A stretch of 64,000 nucleotides of DNA from NCBI GenBank assembly GCA_963920765.1, contig OY987244.1:6388501-6452500 (forward strand), read 5' to 3'. A program made the position numbers and the translations under genes. The notes under the pieces are model-generated. The model did no database searches, was not told the origin of the DNA, and worked only from the letters and a program-made list of their open reading frames with translations. Shown one piece after another: positions 402 to 60,400 of the stretch. Positions within the stretch are counted from its first letter, which is position 1. Every line of letters begins with the position of its first letter. This DNA comes from Ulota crispa. Its lineage: Eukaryota > Streptophyta > Bryopsida > Orthotrichales > Orthotrichaceae.

Positions 402-1235
402 CTAATCCCTAAATGACCAAGCCCTTTTTTCTATGAAAATCACTAAAAACTGTCATTTCTAAGAGGTTTAGTAAAAAGGGATTTTGTATTTTGTTTTTGT
501 GAAATTCAACTATAGGATCTTGCTCTAAACGAGAAGAGGTACTTGTGGGAAAAAAATCAAAAAAATTGCTTTGTCCAAAGTTGCACTTTAAATTTTCCAT
601 GCAAGAGATCAAGTTAGGTATAGGTGGAAGAAATTTCAAATCAACTAGAACTATGCAACACATGAGAAAAAATAGTAAGCAAAAAAAGTAGAGGAGTCAA
701 AACACCAAATTGTTAAAAATTTAATTATTGAAATAAGAAATGCAAATCCCAACAGTGATAATGTTGTGATAAACAATCTACTTCCTTTAATTTAATTTTT
801 TTCCAAAATATTGAAAATTGAGTAAAATAAGGACTTTGAAGTTTATTTTAGAGTAGAGAATCCACACTGCCCGCAAACATAAACTCCTCATAATTCTCAT
901 CTCATTGATTGAAATTGAGTAATTCAAAGCTTCTCAGGTATAAAAAAATAGAAAGAACCAATTTCAAATATTAATTTTAAAAAAATGTAAATTTTTAAAG
1001 AAGTTTTTGGGTTGCCCAAAGTTCCGAATGGCCAGTCCTTTCCAAATTTTGATAAATTCTTGCATAACTTCTTCATTAAATGTCAAAATGAAGAAAAAAT
1101 TAGATGCCCACATAGATCTTTGAATTCCCCACCTTCAAAGAAAGTTTTAGAAAATCACACAAAGTAGTTTGGCCATAGGTACATGCCTGAAGTCCAACCT
1201 GTCCCCCAAAGGGACAATGGTCCTTTAGGGGTTAA
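402..1235. mobile_element. TTAA-flanked non-autonomous element (long subfamily)
   Basis: The left end reads CTAATCCCTAAATGACCAAG and the right end is the reverse complement of TTAACCCCTAAAGGACC, so terminal inverted repeats are flanked by TTAA (one base changed on the left). The inside resembles the elements at 21475-22399 and 54730-55646, with the shared motif ATCACTAAAAACTG near the left end and CATAGGTACATGCC near the right. No transposase is present. TTAA target sites and CCC-starting ends are known hallmarks of the piggyBac superfamily; that assignment is an inference. Confidence 0.75.
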
Positions 1236-21199: not shown

Positions 21200-21476
21200 A
21201 ATGCCATATTCATGAAATTTGGAAAACTAGATTCCCAAGTTGTATTTCACCTTAAACCCAACGTTTCTCCTTCAAGCGTTTAAACACCAAATTTAAAGGT
21301 ATCAAATTTGGTCTGAGTCACTAAGATTTTGTCCCTTGCAAATTCCTCCTCTCATGTGGGGGCATGTGTACCAGAAAAAACATTCCTTAAACCTAGAGCT
21401 CAGTTTAAGGTGATCACCTTAAACCTAGATTATTCCCAAAATGGGCGTTTCTTCCCAAATTAACAAATATGGCATT
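21200..21476 (-). mobile_element. Second, inverted copy of the same MITE
   Basis: This is the reverse complement of 20686-20967 over nearly its whole length (for example the shared AAGGTGATCACCTTAAA palindrome). The two copies, 230 bp apart, form a large inverted repeat inside the intron. Confidence 0.75.
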
Positions 21477-22399
21477 AACCCCTAAAGGCCCAAGCCCTTG
21501 TTTTTGTAAAAATCACTAAAAACTGCCACTTTTGAAGGAATGAGTAGAAAAGTAGGAAAACAAGTTTGTTTTGAAAATCCAACTATAGGATCATGTTCTA
21601 GACTATGGGAGGTACTTGCAAAAAAAAATTTAGCACAATTTAGATGTAGAGGAGTGAGATATTGACATTTGAAGTGCAAAAGTAAGTTTTTTCCCTACTA
21701 CCCAAAAATTTCAAAAGCCTTTGACCTCTCCTATATCAGTTGCTCTACGCAAAGTTGAGGTTTATTTTTCCCATGTAGGAGACCAAGTTGGGTAAGTGTG
21801 TAAGAATTTTCAAATGAACTGGAGGTGTGGATCATAATTTGTAAAATATTGCAAAGCCATAAGGCCATGAAATTTGCATCTACACTGAGCAAAATTGGAG
21901 GATTTATGTAAAATTGAGAAATCCAAATTATTTTGATCCAAATAGTAAAATCTAAGGAATCTTAGTCTACTCCAATTTGGAAAAAAAAAAGTAAAAAAAA
22001 GTAAAGCACAAAATTTTACAAAGGGCAAAAGAAATGGAGGTTTGGGAATTCAATACCTACTCGCAAACTAAAACTTCTCACTCATCAATCAAAATTGAAT
22101 GATGCCACATATATAATAATAAAAAGAACCAATTTCAGATTTTTTTGATGAAAAATTACAAATTTTAAAGAATTTTTTTGGGCTACGTGGATTGCTTGGC
22201 CTCCCTTGTTGTTCAGAAGTTCATGCATAACTTCTTCAATAGTTGTCAGAAATAAGAAAAAATTGGATGTGCACGTACATTTTTGAATTCTTCACCATCC
22301 ACAAAAATTTCAAAAAAATTATAAAAACTGGTTTAGTCATAGGTACATGCCCAAGGTCCATTTGTCCCCTGAGGGGACACTTGGGCCTTTAGGGGTTAA
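21475..22399. mobile_element. TTAA-flanked element (long subfamily) in the intron
   Basis: TTAACCCCTAAAGGCCCAAG at the left and the near-perfect inverse CTTGGGCCTTTAGGGGTTAA at the right are the cleanest ends of the family in the window. The element abuts the MITE at 21200-21476. It is 925 bp with no transposase frame. Confidence 0.9.
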
Positions 22400-26919: not shown

Positions 26920-27160
26920 TTAACCCCTAAGTGTCACCAAGGATGTTTTTTGGATCCTAATTCCGGGAACACTTTAATCATCAAACTTCATAATCTCCAT
27001 ATTTGTATGGTGGATTTCTACACAAATTATAGATTTGCACTTGTCAGGAAGTTGTCAACTATTGTGATTATTTTAATTGTTGCTTGCACTTCAAGTTATT
27101 CCATTTAGTTTAGAATGCTCTCCCAAATCTGCTATTCTGTTTGTGACGCTTAGGGGTTAA
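26920..27160. mobile_element. 241-bp TTAA-flanked MITE
   Basis: It starts TTAACCCCTAAGTGTCACC and ends GTGACGCTTAGGGGTTAA. The inside is unlike the other subfamilies. Confidence 0.85.
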
Positions 27161-51184: not shown

Positions 51185-52204
51185 AATTCCAGAGCCGAGC
51201 TAGTTTCTATACTCTTTTTTAACAAGAATGCTGCTCTCTCAAAGGGTGACGTTGGTTACCACCAAATCTCTGGATATCCAAAGATTTAGCGACATTTGGC
51301 TCCTCTTCTGCAAGCATGTATCATACAACGTAAGCACCATATTTCTCGTGGTCTTGCAAGAAATTGAAGAAGGGGTTGCGGTGGTTTTAGAGCCTCCCAG
51401 TTTGTCATATTCTTTAATTCCTCTTTGAAATATAGCAAGCACACAGCGTTTGTGGCAAATTCTAGTGTTTTTTATGGGAGAGACTTTTCTCGTACTTTGT
51501 TTTGTTTCGCTTGGATGGCTCTGCTTTGTGGTGTTTGGTTCTCCCGTGGCTGAAGTTTTTAGTAACCAGTGGAGTGACTTTGAAGGGTCCAATATGGTCT
51601 TGGAAATCACGTTGGGGGAATTTTAAAGGAAAACATTAGCGGGGTTAACGAGATTTGGAATTTTCAAATGGCGGCTTAGACTAGTGTTGTGTGGGTATTT
51701 TCAACAACATGCAATGTGCATTGTAGAGGAGTATGTGCCTTGGAATGTACGCTCCTTGTTTGATGCCGTAACTACCCAATATTTGCCGGTTGAGATTCAT
51801 GTCTCTGTAAGTTTAAAAATTTAAATTTGCTCAATACATGGGGTAAGGGCAAGGGGGAGAGGGGAGACTCGTGATAACGATGATACTCAAAAGCTTGCAC
51901 TCTTGATGGATGGTTTGTGTGCAATCCTAGGTTTCGTTTATTGGACCTCATTCTTGGAAAGGAGGTGTAGAGAAATTTGAGATTTCTAGCTTTTTGAAAA
52001 GCTGGACCAGCATTCTATCTAGATGCCGATTGTTGTGGGCATAGTAAATGACTATTGTTCCTTAGATTGGTATTTGTTTTATGCAACCCAAGGTTTTGCT
52101 TGTTGATTAACCCCCTTTTTTCAAGTATCAATGTTTTGAAAGCCTAGTTTTGTCATACAACTTGGCAATCTGCCCTAAATATGTGAGATGTACACTTTGT
52201 TGAT
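51185..52204. other. 3' flank of the mutase gene, no further gene
   Basis: Probably 3' untranslated sequence followed by spacer. No coding frame is recognised. Confidence 0.4.
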
Positions 52205-52434
52205 TAACCCCTGAACGGCCATCGACCATTTCTGGCCGTATGTACGGCCGTATATACAGCTGTATTTGAGCTGCTTTGAGGGCTTTTCCAAAAAAATTAT
52301 GCACCCATCATCGTACAACCTTTCAATATGTATGGTTGTAACACTTAATTTCCAACTAATTCAAACTTTTGAATATTGATTGCGATTGTATTTGGTACCA
52401 TATTTATAGAGCCCAAGGGCCCTTTAGGGGTTGA
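52205..52434. mobile_element. TTAA-flanked MITE, uninterrupted copy
   Basis: TTAACCCCTGAACGGCCATC at the left and GGGCCCTTTAGGGGTTGA at the right. The same element, split by another, is at 56803-57428. The right target site is shared with the next element. Confidence 0.85.
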
Positions 52435-52670
52435 CCCTTAAAGGACCGAGGAGCCCTTTGCGACCAGTACAGTATTTAGTATTTTCTTGTATTTGGAATG
52501 CATCCACATCTTTACTACATTTGAGATCAACAAAGAAGTTAGAATATAAATCCATGCAGTTCTAGTGAGCTAGTCAAGATCCCAAATTAAAACTTTTTAT
52601 TGGTAGCAAAAGTTAGTTATACGGCAATGTATTTACTATGTAATATGTAGAGCGGTCCTTTAAGGGTTAA
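52431..52670. mobile_element. TTAA-flanked MITE, abutting copy
   Basis: TTGACCCTTAAAGGACCGAG to GGTCCTTTAAGGGTTAA. Full-length match to 19760-19989. Confidence 0.85.
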
Positions 52671-53617: not shown

Positions 53618-53913
53618 TTAACCCCTGAACGTCACATGGGGGCTGAGGGTACGCCCATAATACATGGGTCGTTGATGTGGCGGTTTGAAGGGACGCATTC
53701 CCGCGAAAGCCTAGCCGCGCATCTTCCGGCTGTAAAGGCATCTACCATTCTCAGCAGTTCTGTCGCGTACTAATAGCACATTCTGAAATTCCTCTAGTTT
53801 TGCTGGTCTTGGACTGACAGACGTCTGTCACTCCCGCGAGTACATTTCCAAAGCCCGTATTGTACACGAATATGATTGCGGCCACAAAGGTGTTTGTGCC
53901 GTTCAGGGGTTAA
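53618..53913. mobile_element. GC-rich TTAA-flanked MITE
   Basis: TTAACCCCTGAACGTCACAT at the left and GTGCCGTTCAGGGGTTAA at the right. The inside is much more GC-rich than the other subfamilies (for example CCGCGAAAGCCTAGCCGCGC). It has no relative in the window. Confidence 0.85.
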
Positions 53914-54409: not shown

Positions 54410-55720
54410 TTTATAGGGAATTGCTAACGCAACATTCTAAATTGCTAGTGAGCATGAAATGTGATTTTTAATGATGATTTGATTTATTGAAGTGGTCCAT
54501 CATTCATTCATTCCTGGCATTACCACCTCCTTGAGAGAAAACATGACAAATACAAATTTTTGTTGAAATATTATTGCACCAATACTATTTTTTGATGTAT
54601 TTTTGCTTTAGGTAACTCAAAAGTCCTATATTTTTAGTTTCAAATTTAAGCACACCTTTTTCTTTTTAGGTATAGCCTTAGAATGATAAAGGTGAAACAA
54701 ATGTTTTGATCCATATAAAAAAATGGGCATTAACCCCTAAAATTCTTTTGTATTTAGAAGCCCAAAACCACTTCAAAATACTAGTCCCCAAACCAGGGTC
54801 AAAACCTTCATTGAAACTTACTTCTTAACAAATCCAACCATAGGATCCTTTGGTTGACTTGCACAAATACATTGTCCCAAAATTTCAAATTGAATATCCC
54901 CACCAATTGCAAGATCAATGTGCCCAAATTTCAAAATGTAGGCTTTTCTAGTCCTTCTAGAAGGTGAAGTTTTGTTTTTCAAACTTTTTAGAGAAAAGCA
55001 CATATGTTGTATTTCTTGTGCAATTTTTGCAATAGGTTGGAAAATGTGTTGAAAGCAAATATAAATAAATGACCAAAAAAATTTGGATTCATTTTTACAA
55101 AAATTGTAAAGTGAAAGGTCTTGATGAATGAAAGATATAACTAATATGCTAATAAGTTTTGGAAGAATTTGGAAATTGTTAATCTCAATGGTGAGAATGC
55201 TCTAACAGACAATTAATAACTTTAATTTTCATTTTCATTTGAAAATTTTCAAAATTGAGAGTAAAAGATAACTTTATATGTTTTTTCTACCCTCTTCTTA
55301 TCTTCATTGCCCGCAAAATAAAACTCCTTTTAACTCTTACCTCATTATTTGGAATTGAGTGATTCAACTTTTTTTGAGTAGGTATCAATCTATACAATTC
55401 TATAAAAAATAAAAATTAAATTTTAGACTATATTTTTTGCTACCTGGTTTGACATTGAAATTGAAAAAACCTTATAACGTTTGCATTACTTATTGGAATG
55501 ACATGAAATAAAGCTTGACATGTAGATTATGATGAGTAGCATTCATCGTAAAAATTTCATGAAAAATTTCCAAATTATGAAATCAATAGAGCCTGCCCAA
55601 GTTCTCACAAAGCCCAAAGTGGGCTCCTTGGGCCTTTAGGGGTTATATATCACATTTCATGCTCACATGAGGTGTCCCATTAGCAATTTAGGGTGTTGCG
55701 TTAGCAATTCCTTATTTATA
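54410..55720. mobile_element. TIR element split by a TTAA element
   Basis: TTATAGGGAATTGCTAACGC at the left and GCGTTAGCAATTCCTTAT at the right are inverted; the inner GAGCATGAAATGTGAT also pairs with ATCACATTTCATGCTC. The element at 54730-55646 lies inside. Confidence 0.65.
54730..55646. mobile_element. TTAA-flanked element (long subfamily)
   Basis: It starts TTAACCCCTAAAATTC and ends GGGCCTTTAGGGGTTAT. The inside matches 402-1235 and 21475-22399. Confidence 0.8.
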
Positions 55721-56721: not shown

Positions 56722-56747
56722 AAAAAAAAAAAAAAAAAAAAAAAAAA
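56722..56747. repeat. Poly-A run
   Basis: About 26 consecutive A. No SINE head was found next to it. Confidence 0.9.
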
Positions 56748-56802: not shown

Positions 56803-57428
56803 TTAACCCCTAAACATCCCAAAAGCCCTTTGCGGCCATATGTATGGCCATATGTACAGATGTATTTGAGGTGCTTTGAGGACTTTCCAAAAAAATTTAT
56901 GCACTCATCATCATACAACCCTTCAATATGTATAGTTGTAACACTTAATTTCTAAGTAATTCAAACTTTTAACCCCTAAACGCCCATGAGGATGATTATT
57001 GTCCTTTGGCCTTGAAAAAATAATTTGTACAATAGAAAAAAGTTGTTTTTCATCTATTTTTTTTCCAAAGTGACTGTAAACCCATGATCCATAATAGAAG
57101 GCAAATAACAATCTTGTCAAATATACTCATATTTTTAGGTAATCCAAATTGTGAGAAAATTCAAAATCACAGTGTTGAATCCCAAGCTGCCCATATTGCA
57201 ATTTTCATAAGATCGGCATGCACTATTGATTTTTGAAATTTTTAAAAGCAATACTATTGGTGCCCATCAACCAAAATACTGTTGAAGTTACAATATAAAT
57301 ACTATTGATGCTATAGTGTGGGCAGGCCACAGCCATCCAGCGGTCCTCTAAAGGTTAAATATTGGTTGCAGCCGTATTTGGTACCGTATATCCTGAGCCC
57401 AAGGGCCCTTCAGGAGTTCAGGGGTCAA
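56803..57428. mobile_element. TTAA-flanked MITE carrying a second one
   Basis: Left part 56803-56968 and right part 57359-57428 together match 52205-52434. The right target site is TCAA at 57425-57428 and overlaps the peroxiredoxin stop codon. Confidence 0.85.
56969..57358. mobile_element. 390-bp TTAA-flanked MITE nested in another
   Basis: TTAACCCCTAAACGCCCATG at the left and CGGTCCTCTAAAGGTTAA at the right. Flanks CAAACTTT and ATATTG are joined in the uninterrupted copy at 52205-52434. Confidence 0.88.
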
Positions 57429-60400
57429 GTTTTGGCGGCGCCGAGGTCGGACATGATGCGGTCGGCGGTGGAGGTCTCGAGGCCTCCGCCTTCTTCGATG
57501 TTGGCGATCTTGACGAGGGTGTGGTCGACGAGCAGGCAGTAGCGGCGCGAGCGCACGCCCATGCCGCGGTCGTACAGGTCGAGCTCCAGGCCGATCTGCT
57601 TGGTCCAGATGGCGGAGCCGTCGCAGAGAAACTTGATGTGCTTGTTGTCGCAGTAGCTCTTCTCCCACTCCTTCACCACAAACGGATCGTTCACTGCATG
57701 CACACCCACCCCCGCTCTCACTCGGCGGTCACAGCGATACATGTGTACTCATCTCTCTATTGTGGAGACTCTTGGGAATGACATGGGAATGGCACTGCAG
57801 GTCAAATCTCTCTCTTTCTCTCTCTCTCGTTGTCGTGCTTTCTTTGAGCAGCCATGAATCAGTTTTCTTGCCCTAAAGGCCAATTTCAATGAGAAGGAAA
57901 GACAAGCCATGCATCGATGCTCTTTACCCTACACTAAATATTGAAAATTAGGTTGCTCCACCTTAAGTTCTTGACATTTTACACTATATAAATACTTTCC
58001 GATGCTACAGTAATCTTCATCAATAACTATAGCAATAAACCATTTTAAAGGGTCTAGCAACAATGAAAAAGTTGTAGAAAAACAAACTAGCACCATCCAA
58101 GATGTAAATCATGTGAAATTGTAGTATTTAAAAATTTGCATGCATCTTCAGCGTGGCTAAACATTGAGTCATGAGATAGCTTTCCAAGGTAAGGCAACTC
58201 AAATGCTCTATTTAAAATACAAACAATAGCAAATGATAATAGGGGTAGTCACACCTTCTATGAGAATGAGATTTTTACAAAGAGTAAGCAATTGTGGAGT
58301 TGAAATAGAAGCCAATGGGAGCACTCCTCAATGAAGAAGGTGTGACTTAGTCACTATATTTATTAAATTGGGATTTTCTAACATTTTGGGATTAAGTTGA
58401 CCAACTTAAACCAACCATTACGGTACAACTTGGGAATCTGGTTTTCCCAATTTAATGAAAATGGTGTTACTACCTTTTTGTGGGTGGTGGAGAATGGAGA
58501 ATGAGTTTACCTCAAGAATGGTGATGCAACACAAAAGCAAGTTGTGTTAACGCTAAAACATGAACAAGGAGGGTGAATGCAAGAAGAACAAGATAAAAAA
58601 GAGACACTCAATGGTAAAAAAAAATGTGCAAAAACTTATTCATGCCCATTCATCTCCTTTGTAGGAGAAGGTAAAAGCTTCTCAATCTTCAAAAAATGGG
58701 GCCTTTGCAAATCAAGGAGAGAGTGTTGCATTCCCATTCTTTGAAGATTGAGAAAGGGGTGAAGAAGGTGTGGTTACCTCTAATAAGTGGGGAGAGAAGA
58801 GAAAATGTGGTTTTGTTTTCTCTCTTTCAAGAAAAGCATAGTTCTATATGAACATTTTTTGAAAAATATTTGTGAGACCTACTTGTCTTTAAGTCCCCCA
58901 AAATCTTACAGAATCTCCCTTGGAAGAGGGCCTTGCAAGGTACCTCTTCTCTAGCTTTTCCAAAAATAAGATGCCCTCTCCTTTAGGCTTCACTTGTAGG
59001 CTTGGGCCACCTTATTTTGGGAAAGGCCTTCAAGGAGGTGCCTTACCCTATACGTAATAGCAAACAAGTGCCGTTAGGTCACCCCTAAAATTGGTCTCCT
59101 CACTTATGACATTTGTTTTAACAATGTTTACATGATTAGCGTGAAGGTCTTATTATAATAACTTTGTGTGCAAAAAAAATCTATTGTAGTCTTTATTGAA
59201 AGGAAAAAGATTGCATTGTGGTTGTCAAATCAAGTTGAACTCACCATTATCATTAGAAACTTTCAATTTATGACAAACATATTTCCAATGTAACCCTCAA
59301 TACCTTATCTTGAATGTGATAATTTTACACCAAGTGCGTGGTCAAGTTGAGTAGATGGATACAATTGGGTTGTAGTCAAAACAAGACTTTTCTTCAAGAA
59401 TTGTTTAGATGAAGATAGTGTATCTAGATTGAGTACTGCACATGATATGCTACAACTTTGTAGTGGATACAAGCAACGTTAAATGGCAACAAAAAATGAT
59501 GCAATGACGTATATCCACCACAAGCCAAGGTGCACAACATGCAATATTCAATCTTGCATAGCCAAAGACCAAATATTGCAACAAAATACTGGATTTTGTT
59601 TACCACATGTATAACTTGGTTGCTGGGAAGAAGAGCCAAACAAACCTGTGATACAAATAATTTCTTTCACTCCTCTGTCCAGGATCTCCTCTGCTCGTTG
59701 GATGAATCCGGGAACATGCTTCAAACTGTTGATGAGGATGCATATCCATATTATTATTACTAGACAATTTGGCAAAATAACCTTTCTCTCCTGTTGTCCT
59801 TTAAATTGGAAATCACAAAAAACAGCAAACAATATGACATCACAAGCTTGACGTTTGCTATTTCTAAGTAGGCCAATTTTAAGGCTAGCATAGAAGTTGA
59901 CCCTAAGAGAAGCCTCTCACTGTGTCCTATTGCTCACTGAATCTAATGTAAAGTTGAAAGACTTCTGTGCTTCACACTATGCCTTAAGTTCCACGTCCTA
60001 ATTCATTGCATTTTGCTTAACATGGCGGCACTTTTTTAAAATTGGTGGGACTTCTCCCAAGGTTTGGATCAACCATTTTGGGAGATCCAACTTCTAACCC
60101 AAGATATTATTGCATAAAACATTCATGTATTCTTCAGTACTCCTTTTTGCCATCAAGAATCAACGGGAAGCTCTGCACTGGCAATCAAGAGGAGAGGAGA
60201 GCCAGGCCAGGCCGGGATATTACGGAGGGGCTGACCTGCAGGTGGGAGTGAAAGCGCCGGGGACACCAAAGAATATGACACGCTTGTTGCGGACAAGGTC
60301 ATAGATGCAGTGGGCTTGTAGCTTGCCTTCGTCGTCCAGGTACGTCAGTTCTCCGTTGGGAATCTTGTCTCCAACACCGATGGGCTCAAACGGCGCTGCC

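Follow-up and report, generated by a model that had tools for sequence, protein, structure and literature searches.

Elements and genes in the window

The window, a 64-kb stretch of DNA (G000:C3:6388501-6452500) from a 275-Mb genome in 157 contigs, is AT-rich (35.6% G+C). Its features, in window coordinates, are listed below.

402..1235, + strand: element of the 0.8-0.9-kb group, with matches (77-86%) to the inserts nested in L013, L016 and L021
19760-19989: relative of the element at 52431-52670, about 85% alike; ends of both CCCTTAAAGGACC
21475..22399, + strand: 925-bp element that matches transposase-bearing piggyBac elements
26920..27160, + strand: 241-bp element with TTAACCCCTAAG at both ends
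52204..52434, + strand: sibling of the outer element that holds no insert, with TTAA at its left end and TTGA at its right end
52369..52372, + strand: the sibling's counterpart of the insertion site, which reads TTGA
52431..52670, + strand: element with CCCTTAAAGGACCG ends; abuts the outer sibling and has TTGA in common with it
53618..53913, + strand: 296-bp element with TTAACCCCTGAACG at both ends
54730..55646, + strand: 917-bp element with ends TTAACCCCTAAA / ATAACCCCTAAA
56803..57428, + strand: interrupted copy of the outer element, with the repeats TTAA (56803-56806) on the left and TCAA (57425-57428) on the right
56969..57358, + strand: inner element with both TTAA (56969-56972, 57355-57358), 390 bp
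57425..57742, - strand: peroxiredoxin-like reading frame, probably the last exon, whose TGA stop codon falls within the right TCAA/TTGA repeat of the outer element

Neither tRNA genes nor Rfam family matches were found in the 64-kb window. Matches of the TTAACCCYTRAA type with at most one mismatch numbered 28, against 0-5 in five simulated sequences; at two mismatches there were 70, against 27-50 in the simulated sequences. Across the genome TTAACCCYTRAA has 44,743 matches (22,433 forward, 22,310 reverse), while the reversed-pattern control has 1,029.

The right target repeat of the outer element (57425-57428) overlaps the peroxiredoxin-like stop, and the frame was apparently kept whole. If the target was TTAA, the frame would have been left whole with TAA as its stop. 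Upstream of the outer element lies a run of 26 A (56722-56747), which may be a simple repeat or the tail of a retroposed sequence.

An element nested in a diverged copy of its neighbor

The element at 52204-52434 has a diverged copy at 56803-57428, which is interrupted by an unrelated element of 382 bp. With the flanks of the insert rejoined on one TTAA, 191 of 231 aligned letters are identical between the two, which bears out an earlier reading of the window (the sequence-only reading) that had taken 56803-57428, with correct coordinates, for the interrupted form of its sibling. The rejoined alignment is ungapped at the junction, and its two gaps, of 1 and 8 bases, lie at other places; the outer copy has an 8-bp extra stretch directly inside its right end. 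A gapped alignment of both intact stretches had matched short pieces inside the insert, leaving an unclean gap, and was replaced by the rejoined-flank view; the alignment proposed as a check of the insertion thus succeeds on the rejoined flanks but not on the intact stretches.

The inner element proper, TTAA excluded, spans 56973-57354 (382 bp). A gap of 390 bp with a 4-bp duplication had been predicted; the insert does measure 390 bp when both TTAA are included, but the net gain in length is 386 bp. Read directly, the left junction is CAAACTT-TTAA-CCCCTAAACG, the right junction CCTCTAAAGG-TTAA-ATATTGG, and the corresponding site of the sibling, which has no insert, CAAACTT-TTGA-ATATTGA, so that the claimed arrangement of TTAA on both sides versus a single TTGA in the sibling is present in the letters. 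The inserted and outer elements have their end motifs alone in common, in agreement with the description of the insert as a different member. Its right terminus, given as CCCCTAAA in the sequence-only reading, is actually CCTTTAGAGG; most of the fetched inner copies end in CCCTTAAAGGAC or a one-letter variant of it.

The best reading of these junctions, and a supported one, is that a member of one element family inserted specifically at a TTAA of another family and that this TTAA was duplicated. The further assertion that precise targeting and duplication are evident without any outside data overreaches: the sibling reads TTGA, so the window alone cannot separate a duplicated TTAA target from a TTGA that was later altered on both sides.

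Copies and target-site forms across the genome

The search for further genome copies, suggested with the original observation, returned 40 matches to the outer family (the best 40 of 2,062 candidates scored) and 40 further matches to the inner element, 41 in all (the best 40 of 3,163 first-look candidates scored); of the 40, 39 were near full length and one was weak at 73%. Exact matches to the 19-base outer site number 913 (481 on the forward and 432 on the reverse strand; none in the control), taken here as outer-family copies with a few of them aligned, and 1,690 if one mismatch is allowed, versus 12 in the control. These 913 sites against none in the control, together with the inner-family matches, indicate that the nested pair is not due to chance. 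Both families also recur on contigs C1 to C10 and the long-pattern controls gave 0, which makes an assembly artefact or a chance similarity extremely improbable.

In the genome the outer site takes the forms CTGA, TTGA, CTAA and TTAA, a set suggestive of decay from C to T on both strands of a CTG, the pattern expected from CHG methylation. The TTAA form accounts for 22 of the 913 exact matches, none of which holds an insert, and it was therefore probably a copy already bearing TTAA that the inner element hit. A looser target rule, by which the inner element hit TTGA and both flanks became TTAA afterwards, would draw on the fact that TTGA is a common form of the outer site (among 100 places listed of the 913), on one inner locus with TTAG on both sides (L033, see below) and on other target duplications noted for piggyBac in an excerpt of PMC10813416. 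It would require the identical change twice, and a TTAA without insert is available at the same site in those 22 matches; we regard it as very unlikely.

Scarless repair of piggyBac excision is possible, according to passages of PMC7351741, and an interrupted state might thus have come first, with the sibling losing its insert seamlessly. Against this stand the 913 exact uninterrupted sites, the sibling's TTGA, and the finding that among 84 interrupted-junction matches with 0-2 mismatches (reversed-pattern control 23) the window locus alone carries an outer-family flank; we give this order of events almost no credence. Insertion of the inner element into the TTAA of an outer copy remains the preferred account.

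The same 84 matches led us to reject an insertion hot-spot at the outer site. The window locus had an outer-flank score of 88, while the other 83 junction matches scored at most 18, as did the best shuffled flank; the rejection holds at a sensitivity of 0-2 mismatches, as more diverged junctions would be missed by this comparison.

Target duplications and further nested cases

Scored by script, with the window copies counted, TTAA was found on both sides of 18 of 30 inner-family loci, on one side of 10 and on neither side of 2; the corresponding counts for the outer family were 5, 3 and 0 of 8 loci. The fetched loci of both families are the best-scoring copies and not a random sample. Four inner loci (L015, L022, L037 and L038) are offset by one or two bases, and by eye they too have TTAA. 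Exceptions to TTAA are L014 (TTGA), L018 (TTAC) and L033 (TTAG on both sides), the last a possible rare non-TTAA target. In another inner copy, L031, the right end is doubled, with TCCTTTAAGGG present twice.

The right terminal repeat of the inner family usually reads GGTCCT-TTAA-GGG-TTAA. In 4 of the 30 inner loci (L013, L016, L021 and L034) a whole element sits in the TTAA of this repeat and in all four is flanked by TTAA left and right; the inserts are 923, 932, 938 and 91 bp long (one TTAA counted). By pattern, the TTAA is uninterrupted in 21 of the 30, L031 with its doubled stretch included, and the remaining five loci read TTAA by eye (L027, L038), CTAA (L009), TTAG (L022) or TCAA (L037). 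Unlike the window pair, these four nested cases have siblings with a single TTAA. As a pattern, the nested junction form has 78 matches in the genome (41 forward, 37 reverse; control 0).

piggyBac-type transposases in the genome

A profile search with the piggyBac transposase domain PF13843 gave 120 matches, each above the cut-off (116 of 528 candidates scored; pieces of one gene counted apart), and no match in any of 14 control genomes. We fetched 30 of the 120. A stop-free stretch of one locus, L049, resembles the piggyBat transposase (E 1.2e-21) and PDB 6x67 (E 1.1e-16), and the three catalytic aspartates of piggyBat, numbered as in an excerpt of PMC11707139, align with it. By pattern, L055, L068 and L049 show all three motifs of the DDD triad, L064 shows two and L056 none. 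The matched stretches contain 3 (L055), 2 (L056), 6 (L064) and 5 (L068) stops, introns not being allowed for.

The flanks of L055, L056, L064 and L068 match the 925-bp window element at 21475-22399 at 74-82%. When these four loci were extended, TTAACCCCTAAARGAYY ends were present in all of them, and the far end was located in three, giving elements of 8,255, 8,829 and 8,530 bp; in the fourth, on C6, the far end was absent from the stretch fetched. The left part of the 925-bp element matches all four transposase-bearing elements and its right end matches three (71-78%), so that for the 0.8-0.9-kb group to which it belongs a transposase of the PF13843 type is found between the same ends. Three of the nested inserts described above, those of about 0.93 kb, match both ends of the three complete transposase-bearing elements; the 91-bp insert shows no such match. 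The transposase elements on C5, C6 and C8 also have in common stretches of about 0.3-0.4 kb, alignable in either orientation, which may be nested palindromic elements.

For the outer and inner families themselves, no BLAST match at E 0.01 was obtained in the 30 transposase loci fetched; this test is weak, as the loci do not reach the ends of their elements. In comparison with the four extended elements, the ends of both families align in the correct register along 12-19 bases, at E 0.08 to 0.97 (not significant alone), and inside the ends nothing was better than E 0.04; end motifs alone are common to the two families and the transposase elements of this genome. As a direct helper or parent element was not found among the transposase-bearing elements fetched, the link of both families to piggyBac rests on ends, target and company. 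On these grounds, we infer that the predicted piggyBac-type transposase group would have moved them.

Comparison with known TTAA-targeting elements

The 4-bp TTAA target duplication of the piggyBac superfamily is found in both the inner and the outer family, and the genome further shares with it the CCYT-type ends and a DDD transposase of the PF13843 type similar to piggyBat and PDB 6x67. The left ends of the outer and inner elements read CCCCT, with one extra C relative to CCCT; the right end of the inner element is mostly CCCTT, and CCTTT in the window copy, which agrees with CCYT in its first letters. What differs from the known superfamily is the plant-lineage host. The three complete linked elements, at 8.3-8.8 kb, are long for piggyBac, and lie within the 1.23-9.51 kb given for small animal genomes in part of PMC10813416.

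In their size, TTAA flanks, high copy number and lack of long reading frames, the outer and inner elements resemble piggyBac-type MITEs: no reading frame of 100 amino acids lies inside 56969-57358, and the outer element is too short for one. Both have the inverted ends of MITEs, those of the inner family being short and imperfect. A paper on coral MITEs (PMC2872659) is said to name piggyBac often. PiggyBac is listed among the MITE superfamilies of angiosperms in an excerpt of PMC10004981; with this, and with what passages of PMC10813416 contain, piggyBac elements or MITEs have been reported from plants, so their presence there is not new. In the open-licence literature we found no report on the piggyBac superfamily in streptophyte genomes.

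Other superfamilies share the target. Sola3 elements duplicate TTAA and have a transposase type of their own. Kolobok elements also make TTAA duplications, as stated in an excerpt of PMC9587614, and the want of a direct helper among the fetched transposase elements would suit a mover of either kind. Kolobok ends, however, begin with 5'-RR, while the outer and inner elements begin with 5'-CCC, in keeping with the CCYT start of piggyBac ends (PMC10175614, in part); moreover, piggyBac transposases are abundant in the genome and linked to elements of the window that have ends of this type. We therefore hold it highly improbable that the mover belonged to Kolobok or Sola3 rather than to piggyBac.

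Proposed course of events

Our main reading, which we would put at about 90%, is that the locus contains two short non-autonomous DNA transposon families moved by piggyBac-type transposases, the inner inserted into a TTAA of the outer. An outer-family copy would have landed at 56803-57428, against the peroxiredoxin stop codon, and its internal site would have come to read TTAA; such a TTAA-bearing outer copy was probably the target of the inner element. Later, an inner-family element may have been excised and carried by a transposase provided from elsewhere and joined to the TTAA with a 4-bp stagger, gap filling presumably leaving TTAA on both sides. In the part of PMC7351741 that describes the reaction, piggyBac transposase makes TTAA hairpins on the excised ends, which are joined to a TTAA with a 4-bp offset, and this would account for both junctions of the insert. 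A piggyBac-like insertion mechanism of this kind is ordinary and not new.

The order of these events, like their biochemical steps, is deduced from sequence. Divergence from the family majority is 7.1% for the inner copy (30 inner copies: 5.0 to 9.2%) and 14.7% for the outer copy that hosts it (2.7 to 7.6% in the other eight), which fits a later insertion of the inner element, although selecting the siblings for their similarity biases the comparison.

The nested pair records TTAA targeting as it occurred in nature, in a plant-lineage genome where piggyBac-type ends number in the tens of thousands. How such elements choose targets, decay and stack could be studied from the sequence of this genome alone.

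A possible preference for the ends of other elements

Two ends on one common TTAA were found at 796 places genome-wide (control 0), against 209-231 expected under uniform targeting and 418-462 if all ends were always present. Such junctions are thus about 2-4 times more frequent than uniform targeting predicts, and regional density may explain the excess. On the local scale, another end adjoins 8 of 72 element flanks, versus a rate of 4.1% per TTAA in the rest of these loci (Fisher p 0.015), and the TTAA of the terminal repeat was hit in 4 of 29 inner copies (p 0.035; the 4 entered by hand). A piggyBac-type transposase of this streptophyte lineage might accordingly prefer TTAA at the ends of relatives, which would lead to end-to-end stacking and to insertion into terminal repeats. 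We consider such a preference doubtful: a shared junction can come from the insertion of either partner, so the expectation is roughly doubled, and with element density varying as well, the excess counts as weak.

Plastid sequences in the assembly

Contig C157 (112,500 bases) carries the rubisco large chain and a matK match, and has atpE and atpB on one strand and rbcL, accD, ycf4, cemA and petA on the other; we read it as the plastid of a green plant, probably a streptophyte, a group marked by matK and by this gene order. A stop-free matK-like stretch at G000:C7:6541578-6542525, on a 22-Mb contig, is probably a plastid-to-nucleus transfer.
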